Shown: piece by piece, positions 9,006 through 26,501 of the stretch | Layout of the letters: every line of letters begins with the position of its first letter | Numbering within the stretch: position 1 is the first letter of the stretch | Assembly (NCBI GenBank): GCA_009772895.1 | Contig: WOUP01000030.1 | Span: forward strand, 1-34,345 | Source: Puniceicoccaceae bacterium 5H | Lineage (GTDB): Bacteria; Verrucomicrobiota; Verrucomicrobiia; Opitutales; Oceanipulchritudinaceae | Reading direction: 5' to 3' | DNA length: 34,345 nucleotides | Position numbers and translations under genes: made by a program | Notes under the pieces: generated by a model | Seen by the model: only the letters and a program-made list of their open reading frames with translations | Database searches by the model: none | Told to the model about the DNA's origin: nothing

Positions 9006-9740
9006 ATGAACAGACTCGCAGGCAAGACAGCAGTGATAACGGGCGGGGCCAGTGGGATTGGCTTTGCCTCCGCAAAGCGTTTCATCGAGGAAGGTGCATT
9101 CGTCTACATATCGGGCCGGCGCCAGGACATGCTCGATTCAGCGGTCGCAGAACTAGGCCACAATGCGCGTGGGATTCAGACTGACATCACCAAGCTTGAT
9201 GAACTCGATCGACTATTCGAGGCTGTAAGGAAAAACCACGACAGCCTCGACATACTCTTTGCCAACGCCGGCGTGGGAGAGTTTGCTCCGCTGAAGGAGA
9301 TCACGCCCGAGCATTATGACTATGCCTTTAATATTAACGTTAAGGGCACTCTATTTACCGTGCAAAAGGCATTGCCGATGCTCAAGCCCGGTAGCTCCAT
9401 TATCCTGACGGGATCTACGACTGGGAGCATGGGAACACCTGCGATGAGCGTTTACAGCGCGACCAAGGCAGCAGTTCGCAATTTCGCAAGGAGCTGGGCT
9501 TTAGACCTCCGGAGCACCGGCATCCGAGTAAACATTTTGAGTCCTGGACCCACGAAAACAGATAAGCTAACCGATCTTGTAAACCAGGATACATTGGAAG
9601 ACTTCGCCAAAAACGTGCCGCTGGGCCGCTTGGGCGACCCGGTGGAAACGGCAGCGGCAGCGGCGTTCCTCGCCTCAAGTGATAGCAGCTTCATGACTGG
9701 CAGCGAACTATTCGTGGACGGCGGCTACGCCCAAATATGA
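9006..9740 (+). CDS. short-chain dehydrogenase/reductase (classical SDR)
   Basis: The 244-residue protein is a full-length classical SDR. It has the nucleotide-binding motif TGGASGIG (12-19), the structural motif NAG (87-89), a conserved Asn111, and the catalytic residues Ser137, Tyr150 and Lys154 (YSATK). The C-terminus has the usual GSELFVDGGYAQI ending. SGRR at the end of the second strand suggests NADPH preference, because the arginines can hold the 2'-phosphate. It is cytoplasmic; the substrate is unknown. HxlR/SDR pairs like this are common and often respond to toxic aldehydes or quinones, which is a guess here. It has a good AAGGGGG ribosome-binding site and more AT-rich codons than the surrounding core genes. 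Confidence 0.93.
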   Translation: MNRLAGKTAVITGGASGIGFASAKRFIEEGAFVYISGRRQDMLDSAVAELGHNARGIQTDITKLDELDRLFEAVRKNHDSLDILFANAGVGEFAPLKEITPEHYDYAFNINVKGTLFTVQKALPMLKPGSSIILTGSTTGSMGTPAMSVYSATKAAVRNFARSWALDLRSTGIRVNILSPGPTKTDKLTDLVNQDTLEDFAKNVPLGRLGDPVETAAAAAFLASSDSSFMTGSELFVDGGYAQI

Positions 9741-9761
9741 CCAAACACGCACAAGCGAACA

Positions 9762-9851
9762 TGGCGGAGAGAGAGGGATTCGAACCCCCGGTACCCTTGC
9801 GGGCACTTCTGATTTCGAGTCAGACCCGTTCGTCCACTCCGGCATCTCTCC
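9762..9851 (-). tRNA. tRNA-Ser (anticodon CGA)
   Basis: The reverse strand gives a complete 90-nt serine tRNA. The 7-bp acceptor stem pairs GGAGAGA (9845-9851) with TCTCTCC. The D-arm is followed by an anticodon stem TCTGA/TCAGA around the loop CTCGAAA, giving anticodon CGA, which reads UCG. A long variable arm (CCCGCAAGGG) is typical of tRNA-Ser. The T-arm contains GGTTCGAATCC. The discriminator base is G and CCA is encoded. Its 3' end faces the AT-rich accessory patch at 7487-9740, the usual side for island insertion. Confidence 0.97.
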
Positions 9852-9935
9852 GTGGGCAGTGATGCAGCCACATGACTTGCACCAAAACGGAAAGTGTCGA
9901 CATTATGGGCTGAGTTTGCAAGCAAAACCCTGCAC

Positions 9936-9952
9936 GAGAACGAAAAGTTCTC
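9936..9952 (+). promoter_or_regulatory. perfect hairpin upstream of the first GNGPSL-motif gene
   Basis: GAGAAC-GAAAA-GTTCTC is a perfect 6-bp inverted repeat with a GAAAA loop, ending 9 bp before the GTG start at 9962. It could be a leader hairpin or an operator for the gene; it also lies upstream of the divergent tRNA-Ser. Confidence 0.4.
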
Positions 9953-9961
9953 CTGATCATT

Positions 9962-10774
9962 GTGATTCAGTTTCTGCGTCAGCTAAAGCACCAATGGAAC
10001 CTCCGCCGCCAGGAGCTAGGCCGCGAGGTGGAACTGCAGCAGCGGCGTAACTGGCAGCAGCTCAATGCGTTGAAGGGCCTGCATCGCGGTCGGCGGGCGT
10101 TTGTGATCGGCAACGGGCCGAGCCTGCGCATCGCAGATCTCGAGCGACTGGAGGGCGAGATCACCTTCGCGACCAACGGCATCGTCAAGGCTTTCGACCA
10201 GACGGCCTGGCGCCCGACCTACTACGTGATGGTCGACCACCTCAACGCCGCCAATTTCCGCCCGCTGGTCATGGCTGCCGAAGGGCCGCGCAAGCTATTC
10301 GCGCTCGACCTTTACGAACACTATCGGGACGACCCGCATGCGCTGTTTTTTCGCAAGAGCCCGCCCTTGGACGACAATACGCCCCCGCGCTTTTCCTACC
10401 AGCCGCAGGCGCGCGTCAGCACGGGCTGCACCGTCACCTACGACTGCCTGCAATGGGCCGTTTACATGGGCATCAAAGAGATTTACCTGCTGGGCGTCGA
10501 CTGGGATTACGCCTACGCCAACGACAAGGTAGCACGCCAGGTAGAGGGCTATACGATCCGCGAACAGCAGGATTCGCAAAACCATTTCCTGCCCAACTAC
10601 TTCGAGCCCAACCAGCGCTATCTGGAGCCGCTGGTGGACAAGCAGTATGCAGCCTATCAGGCGGCCCGTCGAGAGATGGACCGCCACGACTGGACGATCG
10701 CCAACGCGACCCGGGGCGGCAAACTCGACGTGTTCCCGCGAGTGGACTTCGACGCGATTGCGCCGGCACCGTAA
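9962..10774 (+). CDS. GNGPSL-motif surface-polysaccharide protein (DUF115/MptE-like or GT42-like), copy 1
   Basis: The 270-residue protein has RRAFVIGNGPSLRIADL (44-60), FATNGI (69-74) and EIYLLGVDWDYAY (173-185). These motifs place it with the DUF115/MptE-like and GT42 sialyltransferase-like proteins often found in capsule and LPS clusters. The GNGPSL loop binds a nucleotide, probably a CMP-sugar in glycosyltransferase relatives. The C-terminus IANATRGGKLDVF is shared with copy 2 at 11796-12641. No signal peptide or membrane span is present. The start is GTG at 9962, with a hairpin just upstream and a weak ribosome-binding site. It ends 5 bp from the end of the convergent deacetylase gene. 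The likely job is adding or tailoring a surface sugar, but the substrate is unknown. Confidence 0.75.
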   Translation: MIQFLRQLKHQWNLRRQELGREVELQQRRNWQQLNALKGLHRGRRAFVIGNGPSLRIADLERLEGEITFATNGIVKAFDQTAWRPTYYVMVDHLNAANFRPLVMAAEGPRKLFALDLYEHYRDDPHALFFRKSPPLDDNTPPRFSYQPQARVSTGCTVTYDCLQWAVYMGIKEIYLLGVDWDYAYANDKVARQVEGYTIREQQDSQNHFLPNYFEPNQRYLEPLVDKQYAAYQAARREMDRHDWTIANATRGGKLDVFPRVDFDAIAPAP

Positions 10775-10779
10775 CTGGG

Positions 10780-11589
10780 CTACTGCCCGGCGTTGGCGAC
10801 GGACTTCGCTTCGGCCTGCTTTTGCGTCAGGTAGTCCATGGCCTCGCTGAAGGTCGTGACCCAAATCTCGTCTTCGTGCGCGTGCAGGTAGGCGAGCAGT
10901 TCCTCATGCGCTTCGGCCGGGACGATCAGGTAATCGCCACCCACCCCGTGGAAACCGAAGACCTGCAAAGCGCCGGTGCCCTGCACATCCTTCACCGCGT
11001 CGATCAGCTCTTCGCCGGTCACGTCTTCCGGGAACCAGATGCTGGGCACGCGGAAGGGATCGATCTTGAGCGGGTCCGCGATGGGGCTGTCGATGGCGCG
11101 CGCATACGTCACCGAGCCCGCCGTCCGCAACTCGTCCACGTAATCCTCTCCCCCCACCACAGTCTGGCCGCAGGGCATGGCGTAGGAGTGCACGCGCTTG
11201 CCGTCGATGGCCGCGAGCAGGGTGTTCATCACATCGATCTCGGCCAGCATGGTCTGGATGCTGTAGTTCTCGTTGTAATACTGCGGCGGCATCTCGAAGC
11301 TGCCTTCCGCGCACGGGTGGAAGACCGAATGGTTACCCAGTTCGTGGCCCTCCGCCGCGACGTCGCGCCAACGGTTCAGGTCTGCTTCGGGCAGGGTGCC
11401 GGTGAGGAAAAACGTGCCCTTGAGCCCTTCCGCATCCAGCGCCGGCACGGCTTGCGAGAGGTGGGATTCGAGCGCGTCGTCGTAGGTCAGGACGACGGCG
11501 GCGTGACGGTGGCCGGGCCACTCGAAGGTTTCGGCCGAGGCGAACGCGCTCACGCACGTCAGCAGGGATAGCAATAAGGCGGTTTTCAT
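10780..11589 (-). CDS. secreted polysaccharide deacetylase (NodB fold, CE4-like)
   Basis: The 269-residue protein has a cleavable signal peptide (residues 1-19, ending ASA). The NodB motif 1 is LTYDDALESH with the Asp37-Asp38 pair. Motif 2 is GNHSVFHP with the metal histidines His87 and His91. Later, FRVPSIWFP matches the conserved Arg/Pro motif. Such enzymes use a metal to remove N- or O-acetyl groups from polysaccharides such as chitin-like, peptidoglycan or exopolysaccharide chains; this one should act in the periplasm or outside. Its frame extends to 11691, but the ATG at 11589 is where the signal peptide starts. It lies between two paralogous GNGPSL-motif genes in opposite orientation, suggesting a shared role in glycan modification. 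Confidence 0.88.
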   Translation of the reverse strand: MKTALLLSLLTCVSAFASAETFEWPGHRHAAVVLTYDDALESHLSQAVPALDAEGLKGTFFLTGTLPEADLNRWRDVAAEGHELGNHSVFHPCAEGSFEMPPQYYNENYSIQTMLAEIDVMNTLLAAIDGKRVHSYAMPCGQTVVGGEDYVDELRTAGSVTYARAIDSPIADPLKIDPFRVPSIWFPEDVTGEELIDAVKDVQGTGALQVFGFHGVGGDYLIVPAEAHEELLAYLHAHEDEIWVTTFSEAMDYLTQKQAEAKSVANAGQ

Positions 11590-11795
11590 CGTGGGGAGGA
11601 ACAGAAAGTTCGATTCTTTACGATCCGGCCAAGAGGGTAAACATCGAATTTGCCGTCCGCGCGCCCCACCAAGCTCAACGTTGCGCCCCAATCAACTCGC
11701 GCGGCAGATTCGCTGCACTGGCCGATTGCCAAGGCTGAATGGGGCGCTATGGTAGGGACGTCTCCTCTGGCTGAACCTCGATCCCAACGCTTCCC

Positions 11796-12641
11796 ATGCG
11801 CAATCCTACGATGGCCCCCTGGCGCTTCGGCTGCCGCGTAATGCGGGCAGGAGCGCGTCGCATGGGGCGGGCAGGCGACGGCCTCCATCGTTCGCTGCAA
11901 CAGGCCGGTATCCCTTTTTCGGAAAACGACTTCCGGCTCTACGATCTCAAGGGCAAGCACGCAGGGCGGCGGGCCTTCATCATCGGCAATGGGCCGAGCC
12001 TGCGCATCGCAGACCTGGACCGTTTGCAGGGCAAGTTGTGCTTCGCCGCCAACAAGATCTTCGTCGCCTACGAGCAGACGGCGTGGCGCCCGAGTTACTA
12101 CTTCGTGGCCGACGAGCTATCGGCGCTCAACTGCATCCGCGAACTGCCCCACCTGCAGGAGCCGCGCTTCTTTCCCTTCGACCTGCTGCACCACATCCCG
12201 CGTTACCCCGGCGCGACATTTTTCAATCGCCTGCAGCCCCGTGAACCGCGCGACGACACCCCGTTTTCGGACAACCTGCTGGCGGGCTCCTGGGAGGGGC
12301 AGACCGTGACCTACCACATGATCCAGTTTGCCGTGTGGATGGGGGCCACGGAGATCTACCTGCTGGGCGTCGATTTCAATTACCCTGCCCCACCGAAGAC
12401 GAACGACACCCAGCGCTTCGGTGATTACGAGATCCACGTCGCCGCCGGCCAACAAAGCCACTTCAGCAAAGACTATTACCGGCCGGGCGACATCTTCAAA
12501 GGCCCCCGTCTGGAAGAACAGGAGATCGCCTACCGCCACGCCCGCACCTACTGCGAACGCCACGGCATCCGCATCGCCAACGCCACCCGCGGCGGCAAAC
12601 TCGAAGTCTTCGAGCGCGTGGACTTCGAGGGGCTGGTGTAG
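11796..12641 (+). CDS. GNGPSL-motif surface-polysaccharide protein, copy 2
   Basis: The 281-residue protein is a paralogue of the one at 9962-10774. It carries RRAFIIGNGPSLRIADL (58-74), an AWRPSYY segment, and EIYLLGVDFNYP, with a matching C-terminus IANATRGGKLEVFERVDF. Its N-terminus is longer and basic. A 23-bp DNA block over the GNGPSL codons (11991-12013) is identical to 10115-10137 in copy 1, unexpected for proteins that differ so much elsewhere. The function is as for copy 1: a possible nucleotide-sugar-dependent glycosyltransferase of surface polysaccharide. The ATG at 11796 is used; Met6 (11811) is an alternative. No clear Shine-Dalgarno sequence is present. It ends 18 bp from the end of the convergent TonB-like gene. 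Confidence 0.75.
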   Translation: MRNPTMAPWRFGCRVMRAGARRMGRAGDGLHRSLQQAGIPFSENDFRLYDLKGKHAGRRAFIIGNGPSLRIADLDRLQGKLCFAANKIFVAYEQTAWRPSYYFVADELSALNCIRELPHLQEPRFFPFDLLHHIPRYPGATFFNRLQPREPRDDTPFSDNLLAGSWEGQTVTYHMIQFAVWMGATEIYLLGVDFNYPAPPKTNDTQRFGDYEIHVAAGQQSHFSKDYYRPGDIFKGPRLEEQEIAYRHARTYCERHGIRIANATRGGKLEVFERVDFEGLV

Positions 12642-12659
12642 GGAGGCTGTAACGCCCCC

Positions 12660-13391
12660 CTACTCCGTGGGCTTGAAGACGAAGCGTTGCTCGGCGCGGA
12701 CGATCATGGGCTTGCCTTTGACGGTCGGGGGTTCGAAGCGCCATTGGCGCACGGCGTCATAGGCGGAGGCGGCGAGGTTGAGGTCGCAATTCAGTTCGGT
12801 CACGACGGGCATGCGCACCTTGCCCTCTTCGTCGATGTAGAAACTGACCACGGCGTCACCAGCTCCGGCATCAGCGTCGCCTGAATAGCCGGCGGGCTCG
12901 ACGATGTGCACGGGCTCAGGCATCTTGTCGAGTTGCGAGATGTTCGCGACACGAGAGCGCATGCGCTGATCGAGATTGGTGATATGGTTGATGAACGCGC
13001 TTGCCATCTCGCCGGTCGTGAGACTGGCGACAGAGTTGTATTCAAAGCGCACCTCGATCAGCAGGGCTCCGTAAACCGGTTCGCCATTCTGGGTCGCAGG
13101 CGTAAAGCGCCATTGCGCTATGCTGCGGGTCAGGTGGCGCACAAAACCGTCGTGGGTGGCGGACAGGGTCAGCCAGTCCTCGACGTTGCCCTCCGGATCG
13201 GTCTCGACCTGGATCAGCACGGTGCCTTCCATGATGCCCTGGCCGGTGAGGTATTCCGGGTAATTGAGTGAAGCGCGCTTGAGGATCTTCGGCGGCTCGT
13301 AGTTTTCCTGAGCCTGGAGTTGGACGGCGGGACCTGTTGCGAAGACGAGGCCGAGCAACGCAGCCGTAAAGCGGATAAGGGATGTTTTCAT
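12660..13391 (-). CDS. exported protein with two TonB C-terminal-like domains
   Basis: The 243-residue protein has a signal peptide (about 1-27, ending QAQ) rather than the usual long TonB anchor and proline-rich stalk. Residues 33-115 and about 155-240 each resemble the TonB C-terminal fold. The first has GTVLIQVETDPEGNVEDW and AQWRFTPATQNGEPV; the second has DAVVSFYIDEEGKVRMPVV and RQWRFEPPTVKGKPM. Paired domains without a transmembrane anchor suggest a periplasmic scaffold or a TonB-like adaptor rather than a classical energy transducer. The frame is open to 13418; the start at 13391 gives the signal peptide. It is divergent from the anti-sigma-like gene, with a 128-bp gap. Confidence 0.8.
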   Translation of the reverse strand: MKTSLIRFTAALLGLVFATGPAVQLQAQENYEPPKILKRASLNYPEYLTGQGIMEGTVLIQVETDPEGNVEDWLTLSATHDGFVRHLTRSIAQWRFTPATQNGEPVYGALLIEVRFEYNSVASLTTGEMASAFINHITNLDQRMRSRVANISQLDKMPEPVHIVEPAGYSGDADAGAGDAVVSFYIDEEGKVRMPVVTELNCDLNLAASAYDAVRQWRFEPPTVKGKPMIVRAEQRFVFKPTE

Positions 13392-13519
13392 GGTGGAATG
13401 ATGCGGATTACCAAGCACTACACCACCAACGCGCTCATCCCTTCACTTCCCACCGGAAGATTATTTTGAAGTAGTGCGGACGGCAGCGGTGTATTATCCT
13501 GCGAACAGACACGAAACCG

Positions 13520-14251
13520 ATGAACGACGAACGCAGCATCCGGGAGAAACTCGCCACCTGGCAGCCCGAAACGACGCCCGACCCCTACCTGAAGCAGCGG
13601 GTGCTCAACCGGGTGGCCGCCAGCGGCGAGACCGAGCGCGCGTGGTTTCGGCGTCTCTGGCCGCAATGGGGCCGTTTCTCCCTGGCCGCCGTGGCCGTGG
13701 CGCTGGTGCTCGCGCTCGCCAGCTTCTGGGTCTTGCCGTCCGATACGCATCACCTCGACGGGCAACTCACCGCCCAACGTACCCGCTATTTTCTGCGTAT
13801 CGACCCAGTGGCGCGTCTCGACGCCGAGGGTGCTCGAGCCGAGCCTCAGGCCGACCCATCCCTGATCGACATGCTCGATTGGATGCGCACCAACTTCGAC
13901 CTCACGCAAGACCAGTTCGTGGAACTGGTAAAGGTGCACCAGACCTATTCCGGCGATCTCGACTCCCTCTACGATCGCCTCGTCGAGCTCCAGCACAGCT
14001 ACGAGGGCTTCGAGTCCCAGCGCCTGCACGACCAGAGCATCGACTTCATCGCGCTCTATCAGCTGCTGCAACGGCGTGATGCCGTGCGCGAGGACGCCGA
14101 GAAAACCTCGATGGCCCTCGTCCGCCAGATCCTGCACGTGTTGCGCCCCGAACAGCGCGACCGCTTTATCCTACTCCTCAACCAGGCCCATACCCCTTCA
14201 GTGGCCGCCGCTACCCCATGGACGCCTCCCCCTACACCGATGCCGACCTGA
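13520..14251 (+). CDS. anti-sigma/periplasmic metal-sensor-like membrane protein
   Basis: The 243-residue protein has a cytoplasmic N-terminus (1-50), one membrane helix (about 52-73, LAAVAVALVLALASFWVL) and a helical periplasmic part rich in Leu, Gln, Glu and Arg (about 110-225). The periplasmic segment, with LTQDQFVELVKVHQTY and LRPEQRDRFILLL, resembles the heavy-metal sensor/CnrX-Spy-like four-helix fold. The N-terminus could be the sigma-binding part. It overlaps the ECF sigma gene by 34 bp, a strong sign of joint control. The reading is that it holds the sigma factor at the membrane until an envelope signal, perhaps a metal, releases it. No metal-binding residues are obvious, so the signal is unknown. 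Confidence 0.65.
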   Translation: MNDERSIREKLATWQPETTPDPYLKQRVLNRVAASGETERAWFRRLWPQWGRFSLAAVAVALVLALASFWVLPSDTHHLDGQLTAQRTRYFLRIDPVARLDAEGARAEPQADPSLIDMLDWMRTNFDLTQDQFVELVKVHQTYSGDLDSLYDRLVELQHSYEGFESQRLHDQSIDFIALYQLLQRRDAVREDAEKTSMALVRQILHVLRPEQRDRFILLLNQAHTPSVAAATPWTPPPTPMPT

Positions 14252-14871
14252 TGCAGCAGTTGGCGGCGGGTGACGATGCCGCCCTGGGACACTTGATCGA
14301 CCGCTGGCAGCGCCCCGTGCTCGCCTTTGCCTACCGCTATGTGCAAGACCACGACGCCGCGCGCGAGCTGACACAGGAGACCTTCGTCCGCCTCTATCAG
14401 GCGCGGGGGCGGTTCCAGCCCGAGCGCGCCTTCCCGGCCTGGCTCTTCAAGATCGCCGCCAACCTCTGCCGAAACTACTTCCGCTGGAAGAAGCGTCACC
14501 CCGAGCAGCAGCTGGTGGATGCCGAGCCCGACCCGGCGCACCCCAGTGCCCCGGAGAGCGATCCCGCCGAGCGCGCCGCGCAACAAGACGACGCCGCTCG
14601 GGTAGCCGCAGCGGTCAAAGCTCTGCCCCACCGCCTGAAGGTGGCCGTGCTGCTGTATTACTACGAAGGCCGCAGCTACCGCGAGATTGCTGCCGTCATC
14701 GGCTGCTCCGAGCGCGGGGTCGAAACGCGCCTCTACCGCGCCCGAAATCTGCTAAGCGCCTCCCTCGGTCTTGAAGACGGAAAGGGCAAGGCGGGCGGCG
14801 CCCCGTCGAACTTTCCGCCCACGGCCGTAGCCCCCGCATTTACCACTCGCACCGCACAGAAGCAGTGCTAG
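14218..14871 (+). CDS. ECF-type RNA polymerase sigma factor
   Basis: The 217-residue protein has sigma region 2 (about 22-90), with AARELTQETFVRLYQAR (48-64) and AFPAWLFKIAANLCRNYFRW, and region 4 (about 133-185), with ALPHRLKVAVLLYYYEGRSY and a helix-turn-helix in EIAAVIGCSERGVETRL. A 30-residue low-complexity tail follows. ECF factors redirect RNA polymerase to stress or envelope promoters. Its ATG lies inside the upstream anti-sigma-like gene (34-bp overlap), so translation is probably coupled. The order, regulator before sigma, is the reverse of many ECF operons. Its stop abuts the cytidylyltransferase start, suggesting co-transcription. Confidence 0.93.
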   Translation: MDASPYTDADLMQQLAAGDDAALGHLIDRWQRPVLAFAYRYVQDHDAARELTQETFVRLYQARGRFQPERAFPAWLFKIAANLCRNYFRWKKRHPEQQLVDAEPDPAHPSAPESDPAERAAQQDDAARVAAAVKALPHRLKVAVLLYYYEGRSYREIAAVIGCSERGVETRLYRARNLLSASLGLEDGKGKAGGAPSNFPPTAVAPAFTTRTAQKQC

Positions 14872-14881
14872 GGTGCCCTCC

Positions 14882-15562
14882 ATGCGCGTGGCGGTAGAGA
14901 TCCCCCTCAAGGCCCGGTCGAGCACCCGGGTACCCAACAAGAACTTCCGCGATCTGTGCGGCAAACCGCTTTGCTGCTGGCTGCTGGACGAGCTCACACG
15001 CTGCGCCCCGGCGGAGTGGGACCTGTTTATCGACTCCGAGAGCGCGAGCGTGATGGACAATTTCGAGGAGCGCTACGGCGAGCGCCTGCAGTTCCACCAA
15101 CGCCTGCCGTGGTTTGCCGGGGATCAGGCCAACGGCAACCACCTCATCCACCAGTTCGCGCTGCAACACCCGGACTACGACGTCTACCTGCAGCTCTTTG
15201 TCACCGCCGTCACGCTCAAGGGCGAGATCGTCCTGGAGAGCGTCACGCAGTTCCTCAACTGCCTGGACCGCTACGACTCGATGTTTCTCGTCACCCAAGA
15301 GCCCGGCTGGATCTGGTATCAAGGCCAGGCCGTCAACTACGATCCGCACCGCCCGGACGGACTGCCGCGCTCGCAGGACGCCCAGTATCTGCTCGAGACG
15401 ACCGGCCTCTACGCCATCACGCGCGACGCGGTCTTCCGCACCGGCTGCCGCATCGGCAACCAGCCCTTGCTCTACCCCGTGGAGCCCCAATACGCCCTCG
15501 ACATCGATACCATGCACGACCTGCGCGAGGCAGAACGTATCCTGGGCCTGGACCGGGGATAA
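14882..15562 (+). CDS. cytidylyltransferase (CMP-sialic/KDO-type sugar synthetase-like)
   Basis: The 226-residue protein begins MRVAVEIPLKARSSTRVPNK and continues NFRDLCGKPL, which matches the nucleotide-binding loop of NeuA/KdsB-type enzymes (IPARxxSxRxPxKNxxxxxGKPL). These enzymes couple CTP with an acidic sugar such as sialic, legionaminic or KDO-type sugars to give the CMP-sugar donor used by glycosyltransferases. Further segments, LQLFVTAVTLKG and YALDIDTMHDLREAERIL near the C-terminus, fit the family's middle and end. The ATG at 14882 is preferred because it begins the family match; a GTG at 14873 is in frame. It follows the sigma gene by 10 bp. Together with the nearby GNGPSL proteins it points to a local CMP-sugar glycan pathway, which is inference. 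Confidence 0.85.
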   Translation: MRVAVEIPLKARSSTRVPNKNFRDLCGKPLCCWLLDELTRCAPAEWDLFIDSESASVMDNFEERYGERLQFHQRLPWFAGDQANGNHLIHQFALQHPDYDVYLQLFVTAVTLKGEIVLESVTQFLNCLDRYDSMFLVTQEPGWIWYQGQAVNYDPHRPDGLPRSQDAQYLLETTGLYAITRDAVFRTGCRIGNQPLLYPVEPQYALDIDTMHDLREAERILGLDRG

Positions 15563-15609: not shown

Positions 15610-18384
15610 CTACCGCACGGCAGACTGGAAGTTGAGCCGGAAGTAGACCGGTGCCGCGACCTTTGGGCGCACATGGAGGGTTGCCGGACCCACAAAGCCT
15701 TCCTCCGGCACAACCTCGGCGTAGGCACTCGCGTTGGCCAGCGCCCAGGACCGCGTCACCGGATCGAAGACCAGCTCGCGCGTCTCCCAGTTCACGAGGT
15801 CGGTCGACGACTGGAGATCAAACGTGCCTTGCAGCGACGCATCGGTGCTCAAGGGCAAGCCGACGGCCGCCCCTGCCGGGCTCACGGCCACAGTCGCAGG
15901 CTTCCACCCCTGCTCCGCCGGAGACAGGCCAAACAAGTATTCTTCATAATCCGTCAGGCCGTCGTGATCGAGATCGGCGTCGTCAGCATCGCCGGCCCCG
16001 AGAGACGCATACAGGGCCGACCACGTGCTGAAGTCCACCCCCATGGCCGGAGCGGCGAGACCGTCCACCGGTTCGGCCTGCGCCGCGATCCCGTTGGCGC
16101 CGTTCACTACCTGCTGCCCCCAATCGGTCAGGCCGTCGGCAGTCGCCAGGTCTGAACCGTCCGTGGTATTCTGCCACGCCCAGGCCGTGCAGCCCACCTG
16201 GTTGTCCGCCAGGCTCTGCATCAGTGACGTCAGGTAATGCGACTGGTTGTCCAGACGCGGCAGCAATAGCGGCACCTGGTCCGCCCGCTGTCCGCTCAGT
16301 TCCTGTTCGATTTCTCCTGGATTCATCGCTTCGAGCGGCATGAATACGCCCAGCAGCAGATTGTGCTCGGGCTCCAGCCGCCGTAGCGCATCTCCAAAAA
16401 AGGTCAGGGAATCCCAATCGGCACTATCGAGCATCAGAGGCACGCGGATGCCGCCATGGCGCGTGCGTAAGGTCTCGACCGCCGCCAGATACGCGTCGGC
16501 CCATGCTTCACCGTAATGGGGCGCCGTCTCGTCGTAAATCTCGAGCAGCAGGGTGTCTTCAAAGCGACGCAACACGCTCAAGTAGGCGGGGTCGGTCAAC
16601 TTCTCGGCCAGGGCGGGCAGCCCGTCGTTGCTCTCGACGCGGAGCAGCGGCACCATGCCGAGGTCGAGGCAGCGCCCCAGCACCCGGCTCAACGCCTCCG
16701 CCGACCCATGGGCCGGCCAGTTGATCCGCACGAGGTTGCTCTGCGAGCGCTCATGGATCTGCGTCAGTTCCGCCATGTCGTGCGCGGGATCGCCCGTAGC
16801 CAGGCTGTTGACGCCATAGCCGCGAAACTCCTGTCCCGCACCGTCGAACAAGCGCCCCTCGCGCACGAAAAACCCACTGGCGCCCGAGTCGGAGGACCGC
16901 ACCGGCTGACCGAGGTTAGAGACCACGTAGTCCGCCGGTTGCGTGCGGAACGGTGCTGCGGGCAAATCGGCTCCATTGTAGAGGTCGCCCGAAGCCACCT
17001 TGGACCACGCGTAGCGCGCCTGGGTCGGTTCGGACACGGTCGGATGCGAAACCACCACCGTCTCGCCGGCGATCACCGCGTTGGCCGCCACAAATTCGCC
17101 GTCGCTGCCCGCGATCTCGAACCAGTCGAGACTGCCGTCGCCCGCCTTCAGGCCGGCGGCGTGGTCGAAGTGCAGGCGCAAGCTGCTACCAGCGCGTTCC
17201 ATCCAGCGATAGAGGGGACCGCTACAGGCCAGCTCGGCCTCGCCGTAGACCTGCGAACGCGCCCAGAGGGCCATGCGGTGCCCCACCGGCTCCTTGCGCT
17301 TGGGGTGGATGTTGGCAAGCTCGTCCGGGTCGACCAGATCGACGGTTACCGCCATGCCCGTTTGCGGCAGAAACAGCGCCGATCCCTGCGCCTCCCAGAG
17401 CTCCGGTTCCTGACCCGGCCAGTATTCGGACCAGGGTGCGAGGTGGGCGAAGCAGAAGGGAAAGTCGCCCTGGCCCCACGCTCGTCGCCAGCCCTCGATC
17501 ATTTGAGGGAAGAGCTGGCTCAACTCCTCCGCGCGGCCCATATTGGTCTCGCCCTGATACCAGAGCACGCCCCGCATGGAGTAAGGGACGATGGGGGACA
17601 GCATCCCATTCCAGAGCACGCTCGGCGTCTGGTTGTCCGTGCTGTCAACGGGAGCCCAAGGCCCCTCGCCATGATAGTTGGCCACGCGCTGCAGATCCTC
17701 CGGGCTGGTCCAGGCCTCGCAGCTCGAGCCGCCCCAGGCGCATTGGATCAGCCCCACCGGCACATCCAGCTCCGTCTGCAGTTCCCGGCCAAAGAAGTAG
17801 CCGATCGCGCTGAAATTGCCGACGGAGGTCGGGCTGCAAGGCGCCCATTGGCGCAACTTCGCATCCCAGTAGCTGGCGGTGTCGGCCTGCTCGGTCGCAG
17901 CATTGGCCTCCCCCACCACCATGAGGCGGAGCTCGGGATAATCCGCGCTGGCGATGGCCTCAGGACCGCCCTCGATCGGCGTCTCGGCGCCCCACCCTGC
18001 CAGCGGGAGCTGCATGTTGGACTGGCCCGAAAGCACCCACACCTCTCCGATCAGCACGTCGGTATAGGTGATGGTGTTGGTGCCCGAGACGGTCACGGTA
18101 TAGGCCGTACCATCCGTGCGGGCAGCAGGCGTCGACAGCTGCAGGCTCCAGTTGCCGTCGGTGTCGGCGGTGGCGGTCACGGGCTGGGCACTCCAGCTGC
18201 CAGAGACGGAAACCGTTTCGCCCCTCGAGGCAGTGCCCCAGAAGTTCACCTGGCTCTGCTGTTGCAGGACCATATGGCTGGCAAAGACTTTGGGCAGAGA
18301 GACCGTCCCAAAGACGGTAGGGGAGAGCGTTGCAAGGCACGCGCAGGCAGCGGCCCTGCGGAAAACAGGGAGTGAAGGCATCAT
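15610..18384 (-). CDS. secreted sialate O-acetylesterase-like SGNH enzyme fused to a degenerate GH5-like domain
   Basis: The 924-residue protein begins MMPSLPVF and has a signal peptide (about 1-26). Residues 28-480 are a DUF303/sialate O-acetylesterase-type SGNH hydrolase: GQSNM with nucleophile Ser122, WYQGETN (275-281), and NIHPKRK with His360. Residues 503-770 resemble a GH5 mannanase/cellulase barrel: FFVREGRLFDGAGQEFRGYG (505-524), an LEIYDE strand with Glu619 in the acid/base place, and AWAWQN (734-739) then GLTDWGQQVVNGANGI. The nucleophile place (usual GEF) reads LLLPRLD, with Arg710 instead of Glu. Residues 800-820 form a calcium-type loop (DADLDHDGLTDYEEYL), and the last 90 residues match a C-terminal domain common in Verrucomicrobia. 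It should act outside the cell on acetylated glycans. The frame is open to 18483; the double Met at 18384/18381 starts the signal peptide. Confidence 0.88.
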   Translation of the reverse strand: MMPSLPVFRRAAACACLATLSPTVFGTVSLPKVFASHMVLQQQSQVNFWGTASRGETVSVSGSWSAQPVTATADTDGNWSLQLSTPAARTDGTAYTVTVSGTNTITYTDVLIGEVWVLSGQSNMQLPLAGWGAETPIEGGPEAIASADYPELRLMVVGEANAATEQADTASYWDAKLRQWAPCSPTSVGNFSAIGYFFGRELQTELDVPVGLIQCAWGGSSCEAWTSPEDLQRVANYHGEGPWAPVDSTDNQTPSVLWNGMLSPIVPYSMRGVLWYQGETNMGRAEELSQLFPQMIEGWRRAWGQGDFPFCFAHLAPWSEYWPGQEPELWEAQGSALFLPQTGMAVTVDLVDPDELANIHPKRKEPVGHRMALWARSQVYGEAELACSGPLYRWMERAGSSLRLHFDHAAGLKAGDGSLDWFEIAGSDGEFVAANAVIAGETVVVSHPTVSEPTQARYAWSKVASGDLYNGADLPAAPFRTQPADYVVSNLGQPVRSSDSGASGFFVREGRLFDGAGQEFRGYGVNSLATGDPAHDMAELTQIHERSQSNLVRINWPAHGSAEALSRVLGRCLDLGMVPLLRVESNDGLPALAEKLTDPAYLSVLRRFEDTLLLEIYDETAPHYGEAWADAYLAAVETLRTRHGGIRVPLMLDSADWDSLTFFGDALRRLEPEHNLLLGVFMPLEAMNPGEIEQELSGQRADQVPLLLPRLDNQSHYLTSLMQSLADNQVGCTAWAWQNTTDGSDLATADGLTDWGQQVVNGANGIAAQAEPVDGLAAPAMGVDFSTWSALYASLGAGDADDADLDHDGLTDYEEYLFGLSPAEQGWKPATVAVSPAGAAVGLPLSTDASLQGTFDLQSSTDLVNWETRELVFDPVTRSWALANASAYAEVVPEEGFVGPATLHVRPKVAAPVYFRLNFQSAVR

Positions 18385-19189: not shown

Positions 19190-19984
19190 ATGGCATTCCT
19201 GCAGGTCAACTTCTACTCCGAGGTGCTCCAGATGGCGAGCAGCCTCAACGTGATCCTTCCCGAGCGCGCCCGTGGTCAGATCGGCCTCGAAGGCAAGGCC
19301 AAGAGCGGCCCCCACCCCACGCTCTATTTGCTGCACGGCCTGTCCGACGATCAGACGATCTGGATGCGCCGCACCAGCATCGAGCGCTACGTCTCGCCGC
19401 TCGGCCTCGCCGTCATCATGCCCAACGTGCACCGCAGCTTTTATACGGACATGGTGGCAGGGCCGGACTACTGGACCTACGTCAGCGAAGAAGTCCCCGC
19501 CGTTGCCCGCGAGTTCTTTAACCTCTCCGACCGCCGCAAAGACAACTACGTCGCCGGCCTCAGCATGGGCGGTTACGGCGCCTTCAAGATGGGCCTGCGC
19601 AACCCCGAGCGCTGGAACGCCGCCGTGAGCCTCTCCGGCGCGCTCGACGTCACCCGCACGCTCGAGGGCCAGTGGAAGCAGGAGATGGCGCTCGTCTTCG
19701 GCCATATGGACCAGCTCACCGGCTCGAAGAACGACCTGTTTCACCTCATGAGCGAGGCCGCCCGCAAGGGCATCGACCTGCCGCGCCTCTGGGCCTGCTG
19801 CGGCACCAACGACTTTCTGCTCGATAGCAACCGCCAGTTCATGCAGCGCGCGAAAGACCTGAAGATCCCGGTCGAATATACCGAGACCGACGGCTATTAC
19901 CACGAGTGGGGCTACTGGGACAAAATGATCCAGCCCGCGCTCAAGTGGATGCTGGCGGGGCGGGCGGAAGCAGCGGACGCCTGA
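19190..19984 (+). CDS. esterase D/tributyrin-esterase-like alpha/beta hydrolase
   Basis: The 264-residue protein has the family's oxyanion region TLYLLHGLSDD (44-54), the nucleophile elbow GLSMGG with Ser125, Asp208 in GTNDFLLD, and His238 in DGYYHEW, giving a complete Ser-Asp-His triad. The family includes tributyrin esterases, S-formylglutathione hydrolase relatives and acetyl-xylan esterases. No signal peptide is visible, so it is probably cytoplasmic; the substrate is not certain. The ATG at 19190 follows a C-rich leader without a Shine-Dalgarno sequence. Its last 44 bp overlap the end of the convergent membrane-protein gene on the other strand. Confidence 0.9.
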   Translation: MAFLQVNFYSEVLQMASSLNVILPERARGQIGLEGKAKSGPHPTLYLLHGLSDDQTIWMRRTSIERYVSPLGLAVIMPNVHRSFYTDMVAGPDYWTYVSEEVPAVAREFFNLSDRRKDNYVAGLSMGGYGAFKMGLRNPERWNAAVSLSGALDVTRTLEGQWKQEMALVFGHMDQLTGSKNDLFHLMSEAARKGIDLPRLWACCGTNDFLLDSNRQFMQRAKDLKIPVEYTETDGYYHEWGYWDKMIQPALKWMLAGRAEAADA

Positions 19985-20573: not shown

Positions 20574-23165
20574 CTAGAAGTAGCGCGTGACGCTGAGCTT
20601 CCAGCTGCGCGGCTCGCCGGGGATGATGAGGGTACCGGCCGAGAAAACCGGGTCCTGGCCCAGCCAGTAATCTTCGTCGAAGACGTTGTCTACGCGCAGG
20701 TTGATGCGCCAGTCGTCGTTTTCGTAAAAGATGGAGGCATCCCATACCCAGCTGGCTGGGATGTGCAGCTCACGGTTGATGTCGTGGTAATAGCCGCTGC
20801 GCCAGGTCGGCCCAAACGCGCCGCCCCAGCCTTGCTCGGTCTGATAGCGCGCATAGAAGTTGGCCGACAACTCCGGGAAGCCGCCATAGACGCCCTCGGG
20901 ATTGTTCGTCAGCTCGCGGTCACTGGCACCCTGCAGGATACCGCCGCCGAGCGCGTATTCCTCCTCGGTCTGCACCACCGCCCCGTAGCCGGCGGTCGCG
21001 TCCTTCTGGTAAACGCGCTGCGCCGTGAACGAGCCGAGCAGGACCAGCCGGTCCGACAGCGTATAGTTGAACTCGAACTCCGCGCCCTTGGCCCGCAGCG
21101 GACGCGCCTCGGCGTCGCGGCTGCTGATCACGGCCTGATCCCAATGGTAGGCGGCAAGACTCACAAACAGCTTGCGGTCGAGCAGGCTCGCCTTCAGGCC
21201 GCCTTCATACAGCTCCACATCGGTAAAGCTCTCCTTGCCCGCCAGCGTGCCGCCGTCGCCCGGCGAGAACGCCTTGCCGAGCTGGGCCGCGCCGTAGAGG
21301 TAGACATCGCGCCACAAGCGCAGGGTCGGGTTGATGGACCCGTTGAGGTAGGCCGTATTGTCCTTGGCGTATTTGTCCTCGCGGTCCGCCTCGGTCGCGT
21401 AGTCGATGTCCGCCGGCAAGCCCTTGATGAACCAGGCCTGCTCGGCGCGCAGCGCATAGTTGAGCGCCAGGCGGTCGGGGATGATCGCCGTGCGTGCCTG
21501 GGCAAAGGCGGCCAGTTGGTAGAGGTGCGAGTACTCGCTCGCTCCGCCGAAAGTCGACCACAGGTTGTTGCCGTCCGGATCGGTCTTGCCGCCCGCGAGC
21601 ACCACGGAGTTGTCGCTGATCGCATCGGCCGTCAGGTCGCGGCGCGAAAAGGGCTCGGCATCGAAGTCTTGGCGCATCTCCGCATAGGAGCCACGAAAGG
21701 CCACCCCCGTGGTCACATCGGTGTTCCAGTCCGGCAGATCGAGCTCCAGGCTCAGGCGTTGCCCAACCATGAACTGCTCGGTATTGTGGGCGTAACCGTA
21801 GGTCGAGCGCTTGCGCGTCTCCAGCCCTTCGGTCAGCATCTGATAGCGCAAGGTGGCGTCCGGCCCCAGCTCGTGAGTCAGTTCGGCGAAAAACAGGTAA
21901 TCGCGGGAATTGGCCGTATCTTCGGGGTCCGCCAGGATGTTGCTGCGGTCGATCTCCTGCGTCAGCGCCTCACCGCCCGCCGCGAAATACTCCGGCGTGT
22001 AGACGTAGGCGTCCTGCGTGTGCACATCCACCGTGGCCAGCGCGTCCGCCGCCGCGGTGCGTTCCTGTTCGTAGGTCTCGCGAAACTGCAGCCAGCTCCA
22101 GGCCGGGTCGGCCGCGATCTCCTCGTCGGTGCGCACCCGGTAGAGGTTGGCCACCTGATCGGGATCGTTGAGGTTGATCATCGTGCCCAACAGATCGGGA
22201 TCGATCTGCTCCCGCGCAACCTCGCCCGGGATGGCCAGCGCGTGCAGGCCCTGCTGCACGTAGCCAGTGTAGGGAAACACGACGAGCGGACGCGCCACCG
22301 TGCCGCCCCAGGCGCTCGAGGTAAGGTCCGGCGATTCGCCGATCACGTATTGGCCGTTGTCGATCAGCGCCTGCGTCGGGCGGTTGATGCCCGGGACTTC
22401 GCTGGAACGGAAATTGTAGTATTCGCCGCCGATGAAGAGGCGTGTGCGGTCGCTCAGCTTGATCTTCAGCGCACCGTAAACGCTCTCGTAGTCGTTCTGG
22501 ATGTTGTCGAAATAGCGATCCGCCCGCTGACCGGAGACAGAGACGCGGTAGGCCGCCGGCTTACCCGCCAGCAGGAAGGGCGCACCGTAGTCCAGCTGGG
22601 CGCGGTAGTAGTCCCAGCGCCCCACCTCGAATTCCACACTGCCGCGCGCCTCGTCGAAATAGGGCGACTTGGGCCGCATGTTGACGAAGCCGCCCACCAA
22701 GGTCGGTGAGAGGTAGGCCGGCGCGGGGCCTTTCACGAGGTCCAGCCCTTCGGTCGAACCGAAGGAGGTGGGCATCTCGTTGCGCTGGTAGAGGCGCAGC
22801 ATGCCGTTGTAGTAGAGCCCGGCCTTGGTCCCGCGCAGGGCGGGCGCGCCCGGCAGGCCGAAGTAGTCGATGCGTTGCGTACCGGCGCCGTAGCGCGGCA
22901 GGTCGCCAAAGTCGTCGAGGTCGAACGCCTCCATCGTCTCCGGCGTGATCTGCGTCACGGCACGTGGCAGCTCCACCAGACGACCTTCAAAGCCGAGGCT
23001 GTCCTCGACGGGCGTGGCGAGAGGCGAAAGCGAGTCTTGCGGCGAGTTGGCAGTTTCCTCGGTGATGAACTCTTCGAGCTCAAACACTTGATCCGAGGTC
23101 TGACCTCCCAGGCTGGTTGCTGTGAACAGCCCGACCACCGCAAGCGCGTAGTGGTAGGTTTTCAT
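20574..23165 (-). CDS. TonB-dependent outer-membrane receptor
   Basis: The 863-residue protein starts MKTYHYALAVVGLFTATSLG, a signal peptide cut near residue 21. QVFELEEF just after it looks like a TonB box, similar to those of verrucomicrobial receptors. Residues about 60-170 form the plug domain (LVELPRAVTQITPETMEAFD, then GLDLVKGPAPAYLSPTLVGG). The rest is a beta-barrel with many alternating strands, ending WKLSVTRYF, with the terminal Phe usual for outer-membrane insertion. It should import a large or scarce ligand using TonB energy, such as a siderophore, metal complex or glycan. Features of FhuE/siderophore-type receptors (VDNVFDEDYW near the C-terminus) are present. The frame is open to 23204; the signal peptide fixes the start at 23165. 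The ligand is unknown; the nearby zinc-type ABC importer makes a metal chelate plausible. Confidence 0.92.
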   Translation of the reverse strand: MKTYHYALAVVGLFTATSLGGQTSDQVFELEEFITEETANSPQDSLSPLATPVEDSLGFEGRLVELPRAVTQITPETMEAFDLDDFGDLPRYGAGTQRIDYFGLPGAPALRGTKAGLYYNGMLRLYQRNEMPTSFGSTEGLDLVKGPAPAYLSPTLVGGFVNMRPKSPYFDEARGSVEFEVGRWDYYRAQLDYGAPFLLAGKPAAYRVSVSGQRADRYFDNIQNDYESVYGALKIKLSDRTRLFIGGEYYNFRSSEVPGINRPTQALIDNGQYVIGESPDLTSSAWGGTVARPLVVFPYTGYVQQGLHALAIPGEVAREQIDPDLLGTMINLNDPDQVANLYRVRTDEEIAADPAWSWLQFRETYEQERTAAADALATVDVHTQDAYVYTPEYFAAGGEALTQEIDRSNILADPEDTANSRDYLFFAELTHELGPDATLRYQMLTEGLETRKRSTYGYAHNTEQFMVGQRLSLELDLPDWNTDVTTGVAFRGSYAEMRQDFDAEPFSRRDLTADAISDNSVVLAGGKTDPDGNNLWSTFGGASEYSHLYQLAAFAQARTAIIPDRLALNYALRAEQAWFIKGLPADIDYATEADREDKYAKDNTAYLNGSINPTLRLWRDVYLYGAAQLGKAFSPGDGGTLAGKESFTDVELYEGGLKASLLDRKLFVSLAAYHWDQAVISSRDAEARPLRAKGAEFEFNYTLSDRLVLLGSFTAQRVYQKDATAGYGAVVQTEEEYALGGGILQGASDRELTNNPEGVYGGFPELSANFYARYQTEQGWGGAFGPTWRSGYYHDINRELHIPASWVWDASIFYENDDWRINLRVDNVFDEDYWLGQDPVFSAGTLIIPGEPRSWKLSVTRYF

Positions 23166-23304
23166 CTGACAGTTTTGGTTCGGTGGGTGATTGACTAAAG
23201 CCAACCGACCATGGGACCCGCCGCCCGCAACGCAAGCTCAACTGGCGCGTAACTGCCACATAACCATGCGCGAATCTCAATCAACGTGGAGTGAGCAGCC
23301 AAAG
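23166..23304. other. intergenic region upstream of the receptor gene
   Basis: 139 bp between the vapC stop and the receptor start, both on the minus strand. It must contain the receptor promoter, but I see no clear -35/-10 pair or metal-regulator box and no gene. Confidence 0.3.
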
Positions 23305-23673
23305 CTACCCCAGGGAATAAGGGACGCGGACATCCGGCCATTCGCCACGAAAATCCTTCGTATTGCGCGTCACCAGCAGGCAACCTTCCACGCGCGCGGA
23401 GGCATAGACAATCGCATCGGAAATCTTGAGACGATGATCCTGACGCAACTTGACGCTCACATCGGCCACATCGGAGGAGAGTTCGCGTAGGGCGAACGAG
23501 CCCAGGAAGCCCCGGAGCACCTGCTCCTCTTCCGCATTTTTTGCCCCGACCAGAACCTCGATATAGGTGATGATGCTGATCAGCCGCGCCTCGTAGCGGC
23601 TCAATTCGTCCGCAGCCTCGCGATAGCCGTTCAGGTAATCGATCAGAATGTTGGTGTCGAAGACCGCCTTCAT
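23305..23673 (-). CDS. vapC: VapC-like PIN-domain toxin ribonuclease
   Basis: The 122-residue protein has the acidic PIN-domain residues: Asp6 in FDTNILIDYL, Glu39 in ITYIEVLVG, Asp86 in KISDAIVYASA, and Asp107 in TRNTKDF. These bind metal for single-strand RNA cleavage, usually of tRNA or rRNA in VapC toxins. The start ATG (23671-23673) overlaps the antitoxin stop as ATGA, so the two genes are translationally coupled. A longer frame from 23685 adds MGRC but loses that arrangement. It is a chromosomal type II toxin-antitoxin module and looks intact. Confidence 0.93.
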   Translation of the reverse strand: MKAVFDTNILIDYLNGYREAADELSRYEARLISIITYIEVLVGAKNAEEEQVLRGFLGSFALRELSSDVADVSVKLRQDHRLKISDAIVYASARVEGCLLVTRNTKDFRGEWPDVRVPYSLG

Positions 23674-23894
23674 GCATCGTCCCACTCACCGCGCAAGCGT
23701 TCCTGGTAAGACAGCCCATCCTCCGGTTGCTGCTTCCACAGGCCAAATGCTGCATCGGCTGCAGGTAACGACTTCTGGCGCAAGTAGCCATCAATCGCAT
23801 CCCGGATCAAGGCCGCCCGCGAACGCTTTTCACGCGCGCCAAGCTGGTCGAGCGAAGCAATGACCTCATCCGGAACTTCGATTATAGTGCGCAT
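23670..23894 (-). CDS. vapB: VapB-like ribbon-helix-helix antitoxin
   Basis: The 74-residue protein starts MRTIIEVPDEVIASLDQLGA, a ribbon-helix-helix N-terminus, with helix RSRAALIRDAIDGYL (24-38). The acidic C-terminus (QPEDGLSYQERLRGEWDDA) would wrap the toxin. It neutralises VapC and should repress its own operon by binding the repeated GTCATCATA sites upstream. Expression is likely leaderless, because the promoter -10 lies 8 bp before the ATG. Confidence 0.9.
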   Translation of the reverse strand: MRTIIEVPDEVIASLDQLGAREKRSRAALIRDAIDGYLRQKSLPAADAAFGLWKQQPEDGLSYQERLRGEWDDA

Positions 23895-23899
23895 CTACA

Positions 23900-23930
23900 G
23901 TCATCATATGTCGTCATCATACAGCGTCAA
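23900..23930 (-). promoter_or_regulatory. vapBC promoter with tandem operator repeats
   Basis: On the minus strand TTGACG (23925-23930) and TATGAT (23903-23908) form a strong -35/-10 pair with a 16-bp spacer. The 9-bp sequence GTCATCATA occurs twice on the plus strand, at 23900-23908 and 23913-23921, 13 bp apart; one copy covers the -10 element. This fits binding by two VapB dimers and self-repression. The ATG begins 8 bp after the -10, which predicts a leaderless or almost leaderless mRNA. Confidence 0.7.
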
Positions 23931-23993
23931 ATCAATCCGAACGTCGCTCGTGCCATCCACTGCGAACTGAAAGCGTGCACGCCGCGTTCCCTT

Positions 23994-24827
23994 CTACCGC
24001 CAGCGGGTGACGTGGGCGGCGAGGTAGAGCAGGCCGACGACGATGATGATCGTAGGGCCGCTGGGCCAGTCCGTCATGACGCTGAGGGAGAGGCCCGCCC
24101 AGCTACCGACCCAGCACAGCAACGCAGCCAGGCCCATCATCTGGCCGAGTGACTTGGCCGGGCGTTCTGCGGCGGCGGCGGGCAGCGTGAGCAGGGCGAC
24201 GACGAGCACGATGCCGACCAGCGACATCATCATGACGATCGTCACCGCGGTGAGCATGAGCAGCAGCGTGTACAGCCGCCCGGCCGGAATGCCGCGCAAA
24301 TCCGCCCAGGTCGCGTCGAAGCACAGCGCACGCAGCGACTGGTAGCCGCCGACCACCAGCGTCAGCACCACCACATCCAGCAGGCCGACCCACCAGAGGT
24401 CGCCGCTCGTGACCAGCAGCAGGTTGCCGAACAGGTAGCTCATCGGGTCCACCGAAGCCGGGGTCGCGGCGAGAAAGAGCAACCCGACCGCCATGCCGAC
24501 CGACCACAGGACGCTGATCAGGCTGTCCTCGCGGTCCGCGGCCCAACGGCGACCGGCGGCCAGCAGCGCCACCGCCAGCAGCCCGGCGCCCAGCGCCCCC
24601 AGGCGTGGATCGAGCCACGTCCAGCCCCATTTGTATTGGGCGAAGAGCGCAAAGCCGACCCCCGAAAGCACCGCGTGCGCGATCGCGCCGGCGAGGTAGC
24701 TGATGCGGCGCACGACCAGCACACTGCCGATCATGCCGAAGGCGGGAGATGCCAGCAGCGCCAGGATAAAGGCGAGGCGCAGGAAGCCGAAGCTGGGATC
24801 GCCCAGCAGCGAAAAGAGCTCACCCAT
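23994..24827 (-). CDS. znuB: zinc/manganese ABC importer permease (ZnuB-like)
   Basis: The 277-residue protein has about eight hydrophobic spans and the family's early VRRISYLAGAIAHAVLSGVG (39-58) segment, where SxxGdAiaHavLpGv is conserved in ZnuB/MntB-type permeases. Later LVGIVLVVALLTLPAAAA matches the conserved vG.lLv.alLi.PAa.A region. It forms the channel for Zn2+ or Mn2+ across the inner membrane. It overlaps the ATPase gene by 8 bp. The frame is open to 24884, but the ATG at 24827 removes a basic extension and fits the operon overlap. No separate promoter is visible. Confidence 0.93.
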   Translation of the reverse strand: MGELFSLLGDPSFGFLRLAFILALLASPAFGMIGSVLVVRRISYLAGAIAHAVLSGVGFALFAQYKWGWTWLDPRLGALGAGLLAVALLAAGRRWAADREDSLISVLWSVGMAVGLLFLAATPASVDPMSYLFGNLLLVTSGDLWWVGLLDVVVLTLVVGGYQSLRALCFDATWADLRGIPAGRLYTLLLMLTAVTIVMMMSLVGIVLVVALLTLPAAAAERPAKSLGQMMGLAALLCWVGSWAGLSLSVMTDWPSGPTIIIVVGLLYLAAHVTRWR

Positions 24828-26416: not shown

Positions 26417-26423
26417 AACTTGC

Positions 26424-26452
26424 ACTATATCGAAGTCGTCAAGCAGGGGCAA
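26424..26452 (-). promoter_or_regulatory. candidate znuACB promoter, apparently leaderless
   Basis: On the minus strand TTGCCC and TATAGT form a -35/-10 pair with a 17-bp spacer. TATAGT ends 7 bp before the znuA ATG at 26416, so transcription should start at or within a base or two of the start codon. I see no clear Zur palindrome. Coordinates of the pair are approximate to within a base or two. Confidence 0.45.
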
Positions 26453-26501
26453 GCGAGCGGCGGGCTTGACCTGTCGGGCAGGCGCTTCCATATCCTATGC
26501 C

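Follow-up and report, generated by a model that had tools for sequence, protein, structure and literature searches.

The gene analyzed here raises the question of whether an enzyme which appears to be bifunctional has kept both of its functions. It is found in a stretch of 34,345 nt from Puniceicoccaceae bacterium 5H (contig WOUP01000030.1, assembly GCA_009772895.1), which we call the window. A single open reading frame (ORF) on the reverse strand, from 15610 to 18384, covers the whole gene and codes for 924 amino acids, followed by the stop codon. The original prediction described a sialate O-acetylesterase fused to a GH5-like barrel without its nucleophile. The motifs it named are found at the residues given: GQSNM from 120, HPKR from 360, LLLEIYDE from 612, LLLPRLD from 706 and AWAWQN from 734. 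The observation itself is confirmed; with its interpretation we only agree in part. We lean towards considering this protein a CE20 esterase carrying a GH5-derived pseudo-glycosidase, probably the dead half of a former deacetylase-mannanase, which since then would have been an accessory under relaxed constraint.

The most direct evidence comes from the catalytic residues of the barrel. When it is aligned with 1bqc, E128 falls on Glu619 and E225 on Arg710; we take Glu128 of 1bqc to be the acid/base and Glu225 to be the nucleophile. The acid/base is kept at the end of strand 4, and an arginine stands where the nucleophile should be, at the end of strand 7, both as predicted. Asn127, His196 (after strand 6) and the Gly before the nucleophile have also changed, to Asp618, Phe681 and Pro709. 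On the other hand, the window barrel keeps Arg553 (strand 2, Arg50 in 1bqc), Glu619, Trp735 and Trp737, and Trp657, after strand 5, matches a Trp of 1bqc. A chance or misaligned nucleophile may be ruled out: Two separate alignments place Arg710 in this position, with strand 7 free of gaps and some gaps in the loop which follows. Since the nucleophile has become Arg710 and the Asn and His which shape the catalytic site are gone, the barrel would be unable to carry out the retaining hydrolysis that depends on two Glu. Judging from the loss of the nucleophile and its neighbours, it very probably does not hydrolyse.

The same loss is found in two orthologous proteins, which align along the length of the window protein: that of Verrucomicrobiae bacterium DG1235 (taken to be genome G662; locus L008, with a frame of 913 amino acids) and that of G003 (locus L016), the latter as far as strand 8 of the barrel. 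The nucleophile is absent in all three fused barrels and present in all seven intact members with which we have compared them. These are 1bqc and six free GH5 relatives obtained in the barrel searches (G219, G011, G584, a second DG1235 gene, G701 and G1055), all of which retain both catalytic Glu. The acid/base is lost in DG1235 and ambiguous in G003, where one alignment gives Glu with a gap and another gives Gly. Neither of these two barrels has the equivalent of Arg553 or either strand-8 Trp. The seven intact GH5s have 21 identical columns, of which the window barrel keeps 11, DG1235 eight and G003 seven. The ten columns lost in the window include the four described above, at Pro709, Arg710, Asp618 and Phe681. 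As a control, each intact member was left out in turn: With the exception of G219, each keeps 21 of the 21–24 columns which are invariant in the other six.

The homology of the barrel is shown by sequence comparisons. In the full protein, region 494–772 matches beta-mannanases among the solved structures (3jug, 5.1e-10). When the barrel is taken alone, it matches seven distinct chains of known structure (beta-mannanase, endoglucanase or cellulose-binding family II by their labels), with E values from 3e-11 to 1e-6 (the best is 3wsu, 3.2e-11), so the match is not due to chance. The Pfam GH5 model, PF00150, gives no match to the isolated window barrel up to E 10, so ordinary annotation would miss this GH5-derived domain. 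In fact, this model is above its cut-off in all six free relatives and in none of the three fused barrels: Profile libraries can miss an entire degenerate GH5 domain. When the DG1235 and G003 barrels are searched as single sequences against the PDB set, GH5 chains are not detected, even with a limit of E 10; their GH5 descent is deduced from their alignment with the window barrel and their position behind homologous esterases.

Structure prediction agrees with this ancestry, although the models are of low to middling confidence. Eight strand-helix repeats are seen in the model of residues 498–775, which was built from an alignment of two rows; its mean predicted local distance difference test (pLDDT) score is 58.6, and the score falls below 50 in the last 50 residues. 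Foldseek finds weak and mixed matches, mostly TIM barrels (best E 3e-4, template modelling score by query 0.22–0.45, eight matches with E ≤0.001), and no GH5_8-type mannanase appears among the 50 matches listed. When 999 of the Foldseek chains are aligned in the VIA structural comparison, nine beta-mannanase chains are found at the top: 3wsu, 3jug, 2whl, 1wky, 2whj, 3man, 1bqc, 4y7e and 4fk9, with Z 12.4–13.5 and a root-mean-square deviation (rmsd) of 4.8–5.3 over 202–218 residues. A designed protein, 8k7m (Z 12.0), counts as tied with the lower of these nine under the rule of this tool, and other GH5 chains follow from 11.3 down. With modest confidence, the fold would thus be a mannanase-like (beta/alpha)8 barrel, whose cleft geometry is only modelled. 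A different fold for residues 503–770 was considered and rejected, given the eight repeats and the mannanases ranking first, with an rmsd near 5. In the model of the full-length protein (mean pLDDT 63.8), the relative placement of esterase and barrel is not settled.

By sequence and modelled fold, the nearest solved relatives of the barrel are GH5_8-type beta-mannanases. We presume that most of the matched chains (1bqc, 3wsu, 3jug and 4fk9 among them) belong to this subfamily. The assignment of 2WHL to GH5_8 is found in part of the text of PMC3526467. The window barrel shares with these enzymes (1bqc, 3wsu, 3jug, 2whl and 4fk9) similarity along its whole length, its fold rank, the acid/base Glu, the strand-2 Arg and the strand-8 Trp. 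It differs from them in the three replacements at the catalytic site (Arg710, Asp618 and Phe681) and in its placement behind an esterase.

The esterase half is much better preserved. The SASA model PF03629 covers residues 114–351. Among solved structures, the N-terminal half matches CE20 esterases first (9h4u with 1.1e-83, 9ega, 7kmm), followed by sialic acid acetylesterase chains. Ser122 aligns with the catalytic Ser of 9h4u, 9ega and 7kmm, and Asn358-Ile-His360 with Asp-Ile-His of 9h4u. In an alignment of esterases (five of six loci used, with L013 dropped and three ORFs taken from L009), the catalytic Ser is identical in all eight rows and the His is also invariant. Gln121, Ser122 and His360 are identical in the three fused proteins; at the anchor place, two residues before the catalytic His, Asn is found in the window and DG1235 and Ala in G003. 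Beta-sandwiches flank the SGNH domain on both its N- and C-terminal sides (model strands 39–120 and 391–458), in agreement with the whole-length CE20 alignment. The match with 9h4u is split into two stretches, which flank an ancillary insert missing in the window protein, as seen in the alignment with 9h4u, 9ega and 7kmm.

On these alignments, the window esterase is a CE20-type SGNH acetylesterase without the inserted ancillary domain, and it is likely to be active, considering that Gln121, Ser122 and His360 are kept. It shares the Ser-His site, the GQSNM and xIH motifs and both beta-sandwiches with Fl8CE20_II (9h4u), PpCE20_II (9ega), XacXaeA (7kmm) and mammalian SIAE (8f9q). In contrast with the solved bacterial CE20 esterases, it has no inserted ancillary beta-sandwich; instead, a GH5-derived barrel follows on the C-terminal side, and then another domain. 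Its layout groups with the eukaryotic CE20 members without insert. Parts of PMC12313940 describe the CE20 architecture (active site, motif blocks, beta-sandwiches), with a Ser-His-(water-Asp/Asn) triad in members with the insert and a cited Ser-His dyad in eukaryotic members without it. In the window protein, His360 would activate Ser122, the third partner being Asn358 or a carbonyl of the main chain, and Ser122 would remove O-acetyl groups from a glycan.

The predicted Ser122 and His360 of the SGNH half are thus aligned with the CE20 catalytic residues. An acetylesterase it appears to be; the name sialate O-acetylesterase is too specific for a CE20-like protein whose nearest paralogue in the same genome (43% identical) is found beside glycoside hydrolases. 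This paralogue is the SASA esterase of L062 1677–18999 (G000:C13), where it is located together with genes for GH1, GH2 with mannosidase Ig domains, GH26, alpha-galactosidase, GH9, a TonB-receptor plug, FecR and LacI/AraC-type regulators, a set which we take to be a galactoglucomannan-type locus. This makes mannan a plausible substrate for such esterases in this organism, although it does not establish it as that of the fusion.

A tree of the esterase parts allows us to place the three fusions. Its 39 rows do not include L012, L013, the L007 fragment or five of the 36 esterase places found. The fusions form a single clade (100/100), in which the window and DG1235 are grouped together (95/87). 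Identity in the SGNH part is 56% between the window and DG1235, 50% between the window and G003 and 47% between DG1235 and G003. The corresponding values for the barrel are 22%, 24% and 22%, so divergence has been much greater in the barrel than in the esterase. The G003 frame stops at strand 8; 120 residues of each frame were read by eye, and the barrel does not continue in them. The C-terminal domain (771–924) is 23% identical between the window and DG1235, and is absent in G003.

The history we suggest would be the following. The window protein would be a secreted CE20-type esterase with a barrel derived from a GH5_8-type beta-mannanase behind its C-terminal beta-sandwich. Its ancestor would have been a bifunctional deacetylase-glycosidase, whose glycosidase half probably died before the three fusions split. 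The barrel would since then be a non-catalytic accessory under relaxed constraint. The window copy, the least eroded of the three, may still hold a glycan chain weakly, which is doubtful in DG1235 and G003. These proteins represent three states of what appears to be a single event: A fused glycosidase without nucleophile, with a cleft eroded to differing degrees and a much better conserved esterase. As a small natural series, they allow us to ask if a glycosidase which has lost its activity is at first retained for binding or is simply tolerated. They are also a warning against annotating such proteins as bifunctional.

The fusion is rare. The genome sets we have searched are overlapping samples and not whole groups, so more fusions may exist. 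Among 384 genomes sampled from the class, a profile built from the three barrels matches 4; it matches 5 of 372 in the sample of the order and 4 of 387 in that of the phylum. At family level, it matches one genome of five for G003, which is G003 itself, and four of 200 for G662. The window barrel alone matches 4 of 273 genomes of the order. The esterase-barrel fusion is only found in three of these genomes, the window's own (G000), G003 and G662 (DG1235), each from a different family of the same order. Apart from these, the profile matches are free-standing GH5s. The best of them (1.8e-23) is an intact GH5 of G1055 with a C-terminal ricin-type lectin domain (L065 964–2484, reverse strand). No barrel match is found in G055, the one other genome of the window's genus listed in the samples, and no homologue is found in viral contigs. 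Five plasmid records match the barrel (22–29% identity over 91–93% of its length); two of these carry a cellulase-family annotation.

We have also looked for hidden barrels behind other esterases, in all six frames and in open stretches of at least 40 residues. The three-barrel profile gives no match up to E 10 in 31 non-fusion esterase loci (L002, L026–L053, L067 and L068). Some esterase matches cross stop codons; these lie beyond the esterase, and by eye there is no barrel behind them in six loci.

Several observations weigh against the history proposed above. Of the 31 columns which are invariant in the other six intact members, 21 are retained by G219, which is intact but divergent, and 18 by the window barrel. 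Overall conservation thus does not place the window barrel far from the intact members; what distinguishes it is which residues have been lost. It also retains 24 of 38 well-conserved GH5 columns, a higher number than would be required of a relic evolving freely. Its G+C content by codon position resembles that of the esterase part and of other window genes, as in a coding sequence in use. No closer orthologue is found in the sampled genomes, including five of the G003 family and 200 of the G662 family, so selection on the barrel is not measurable. Finally, no fusion with an intact GH5 is found in the sampled genomes: The bifunctional ancestor is hypothetical.

The original prediction suggested that the barrel may have become a carbohydrate-binding module, which would guide the esterase to acetylated mannan or some beta-glycan like it. 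We consider this possible, though doubtful. The residues of the window barrel would allow it to bind a glycan, as Arg553, Glu619, Trp735 and Trp737 are kept, together with Trp657 as in 1bqc, and the genome contains a presumed galactoglucomannan-type locus with its own CE20-like esterase. A role in guidance to acetylated mannan is not supported by the orthologues, whose barrels are eroded and only 22–24% identical: The Arg and the two Trp of strand 8 are gone from DG1235 and G003, the second of which stops at that strand. The surroundings do not favour it either. Glycoside hydrolase models have no match in 29 other window ORFs (not all of them need be genes), in 11 other picked ORFs of the 19-kb DG1235 locus or in 12 of the G003 locus, where a single glycan-active candidate, PcRGLX-like, is found about 5 kb away. 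At the same time, a dead GH5 module which interacts with crystalline cellulose is on record in part of PMC3526467. A more detailed version, which we find quite unlikely, would have the window barrel grip mannan in its old cleft (Arg553, Glu619, Trp657, Trp735) with the help of Arg710 and feed the chain to the CE20 site, replacing the role of the inserted ancillary domain. A relic fits better than a conserved binding module, because the orthologues have lost the residues which would bind the glycan.

It is highly improbable that the barrel continues to act as an enzyme by some altered mechanism. Glu619 is retained, and Asp712 or Glu584, close to the places of the nucleophile and of His86 of 1bqc, might act as second carboxylate. 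However, the orthologues have Thr or Asn at 712 and Asp or His at 584, and the equivalents of Asn127 and His196 are also lost in the window. Two intact GH5s have Asp at the 712 place beside their Glu, so it is not a new acquisition. We also consider it very unlikely that the fused protein acts on a nonulosonic acid or another surface glycan of the cell itself, unrelated to plant or algal mannan. The end of the gene adjoins a cytidylyltransferase-like gene, and two MptE-like genes and a polysaccharide deacetylase-like gene are found within about 6 kb. But the cytidylyltransferase-like gene is convergent and not co-directional, no cytidylyltransferase or MptE-like match appears among the scanned ORFs of the DG1235 and G003 loci, and the ancestry of the barrel points to beta-mannan. 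An esterase with a dead mannanase half is the interpretation we prefer.

Dead GH5 modules are already known. Parts of PMC3526467 describe GH5_30, a Xanthomonas group linked to expansins, a lipoprotein group close to GH5_8 and a cellulose-interacting biosensor module of Clostridium thermocellum. As in the window protein, these are GH5 domains without catalytic residues in multidomain proteins, with long branches; in contrast with it, the section on them in PMC3526467 describes none with a CE20 esterase. In the literature searched we have not met this pairing of a CE20 esterase and a dead GH5 among the matches listed, although Figure 2d or the additional files of PMC3526467 may hold one. The pairing is what appears to be new.

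Other glycan-active partners are found behind esterases of this type. Among 28 non-fusion esterase loci, 26 end at most 402 residues from the GQSN block and two go on, with malectin and sulfatase modules. Two of the five places left out of the tree are further long esterase frames: One is a SASA-GH28 protein from the window's genus, the other resembles the malectin protein by eye. Glycan-active C-terminal partners thus recur in the order, and the window protein could naturally derive from a former esterase-mannanase, although an intact fusion of this kind is not found in the sampled genomes. These CE20-like fusions (L067, L035, L028) share with it a SASA esterase followed by a glycan-active or glycan-binding partner. 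They differ in the partner families, and L028 and L035 are outside the clade of the fused barrels (L067 is not in the tree). The GH28 pectinase fusion (L067 822–3626, reverse strand, 935 amino acids) is a candidate bifunctional pectin deacetylase. The sulfatase fusion (L035 1–2964, reverse strand; PF00884, 1.9e-24) has a frame which runs off the locus. The malectin fusion (L028 100–2979, reverse strand; PF11721, 2.9e-16) has a near copy which, by eye, adjoins it on the contig (L068).

The features of the window gene are collected in Table 1.

Table 1. Position of the features of the fusion gene in the protein and in the window.
Feature	Residues	Window position	Strand	Basis
Likely signal peptide	1–27	18304..18384	−	Reading by eye; hydrophobic N-terminus; model helix 6–19
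CE20-type acetylesterase	28–486	16927..18303	−	PF03629, 1.3e-14; 9h4u, 3.2e-84
GQSNM block with catalytic Ser122, and flank	120–126	18007..18027	−	Aligned with the modified Ser of 9h4u
Asn-Ile-His, catalytic His and Asn at the anchor place	358–360	17305..17313	−	Aligned with Asp-Ile-His of 9h4u
GH5-derived (beta/alpha)8 barrel without nucleophile	503–770	16075..16878	−	Sequence and fold matches
Asp-Glu, acid/base Glu kept, preceding Asn changed to Asp	618–619	16528..16533	−	Alignments
Pro-Arg, replacing Gly-Glu (nucleophile)	709–710	16255..16260	−	Alignments
Trp-Ala-Trp, strand 8	735–737	16174..16182	−	Among the three fusions, kept by the window only
C-terminal domain, DxDxDG-like stretch	771–924	15613..16074	−	No Pfam match

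The nearest neighbours of the gene with a Pfam match are the convergent cytidylyltransferase-like gene and a divergent esterase. The first matches PF02348 (1.6e-8) and also the PseF model (1.7e-8), but with 34.4 bits compared with a cut-off of 205.7. It is part of a cluster (window 9006–15562) which also contains a short-chain dehydrogenase, the two MptE-like genes (PF01973) and the polysaccharide deacetylase-like gene, perhaps a small set for nonulosonic acid or surface glycosylation. The divergent esterase (PF00756, 9.6e-19; 19190–19984, forward strand) might share a promoter region with the fusion gene. Upstream of the fusion gene, a metal-uptake set is found on the reverse strand (20574–26491), with a siderophore-receptor-like TonB receptor, an ABC-3 permease, an ABC ATPase and ZnuA.

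In DG1235, a LacI-type regulator gene is located directly upstream of the fusion, in the same strand. The G003 fusion gene converges with that of an FkbM-type methyltransferase. The G003 locus also contains a restriction-modification pair (L063 13404–15177, forward strand), formed by a C-5 cytosine methylase beside an Eco29kI-type restriction endonuclease gene.

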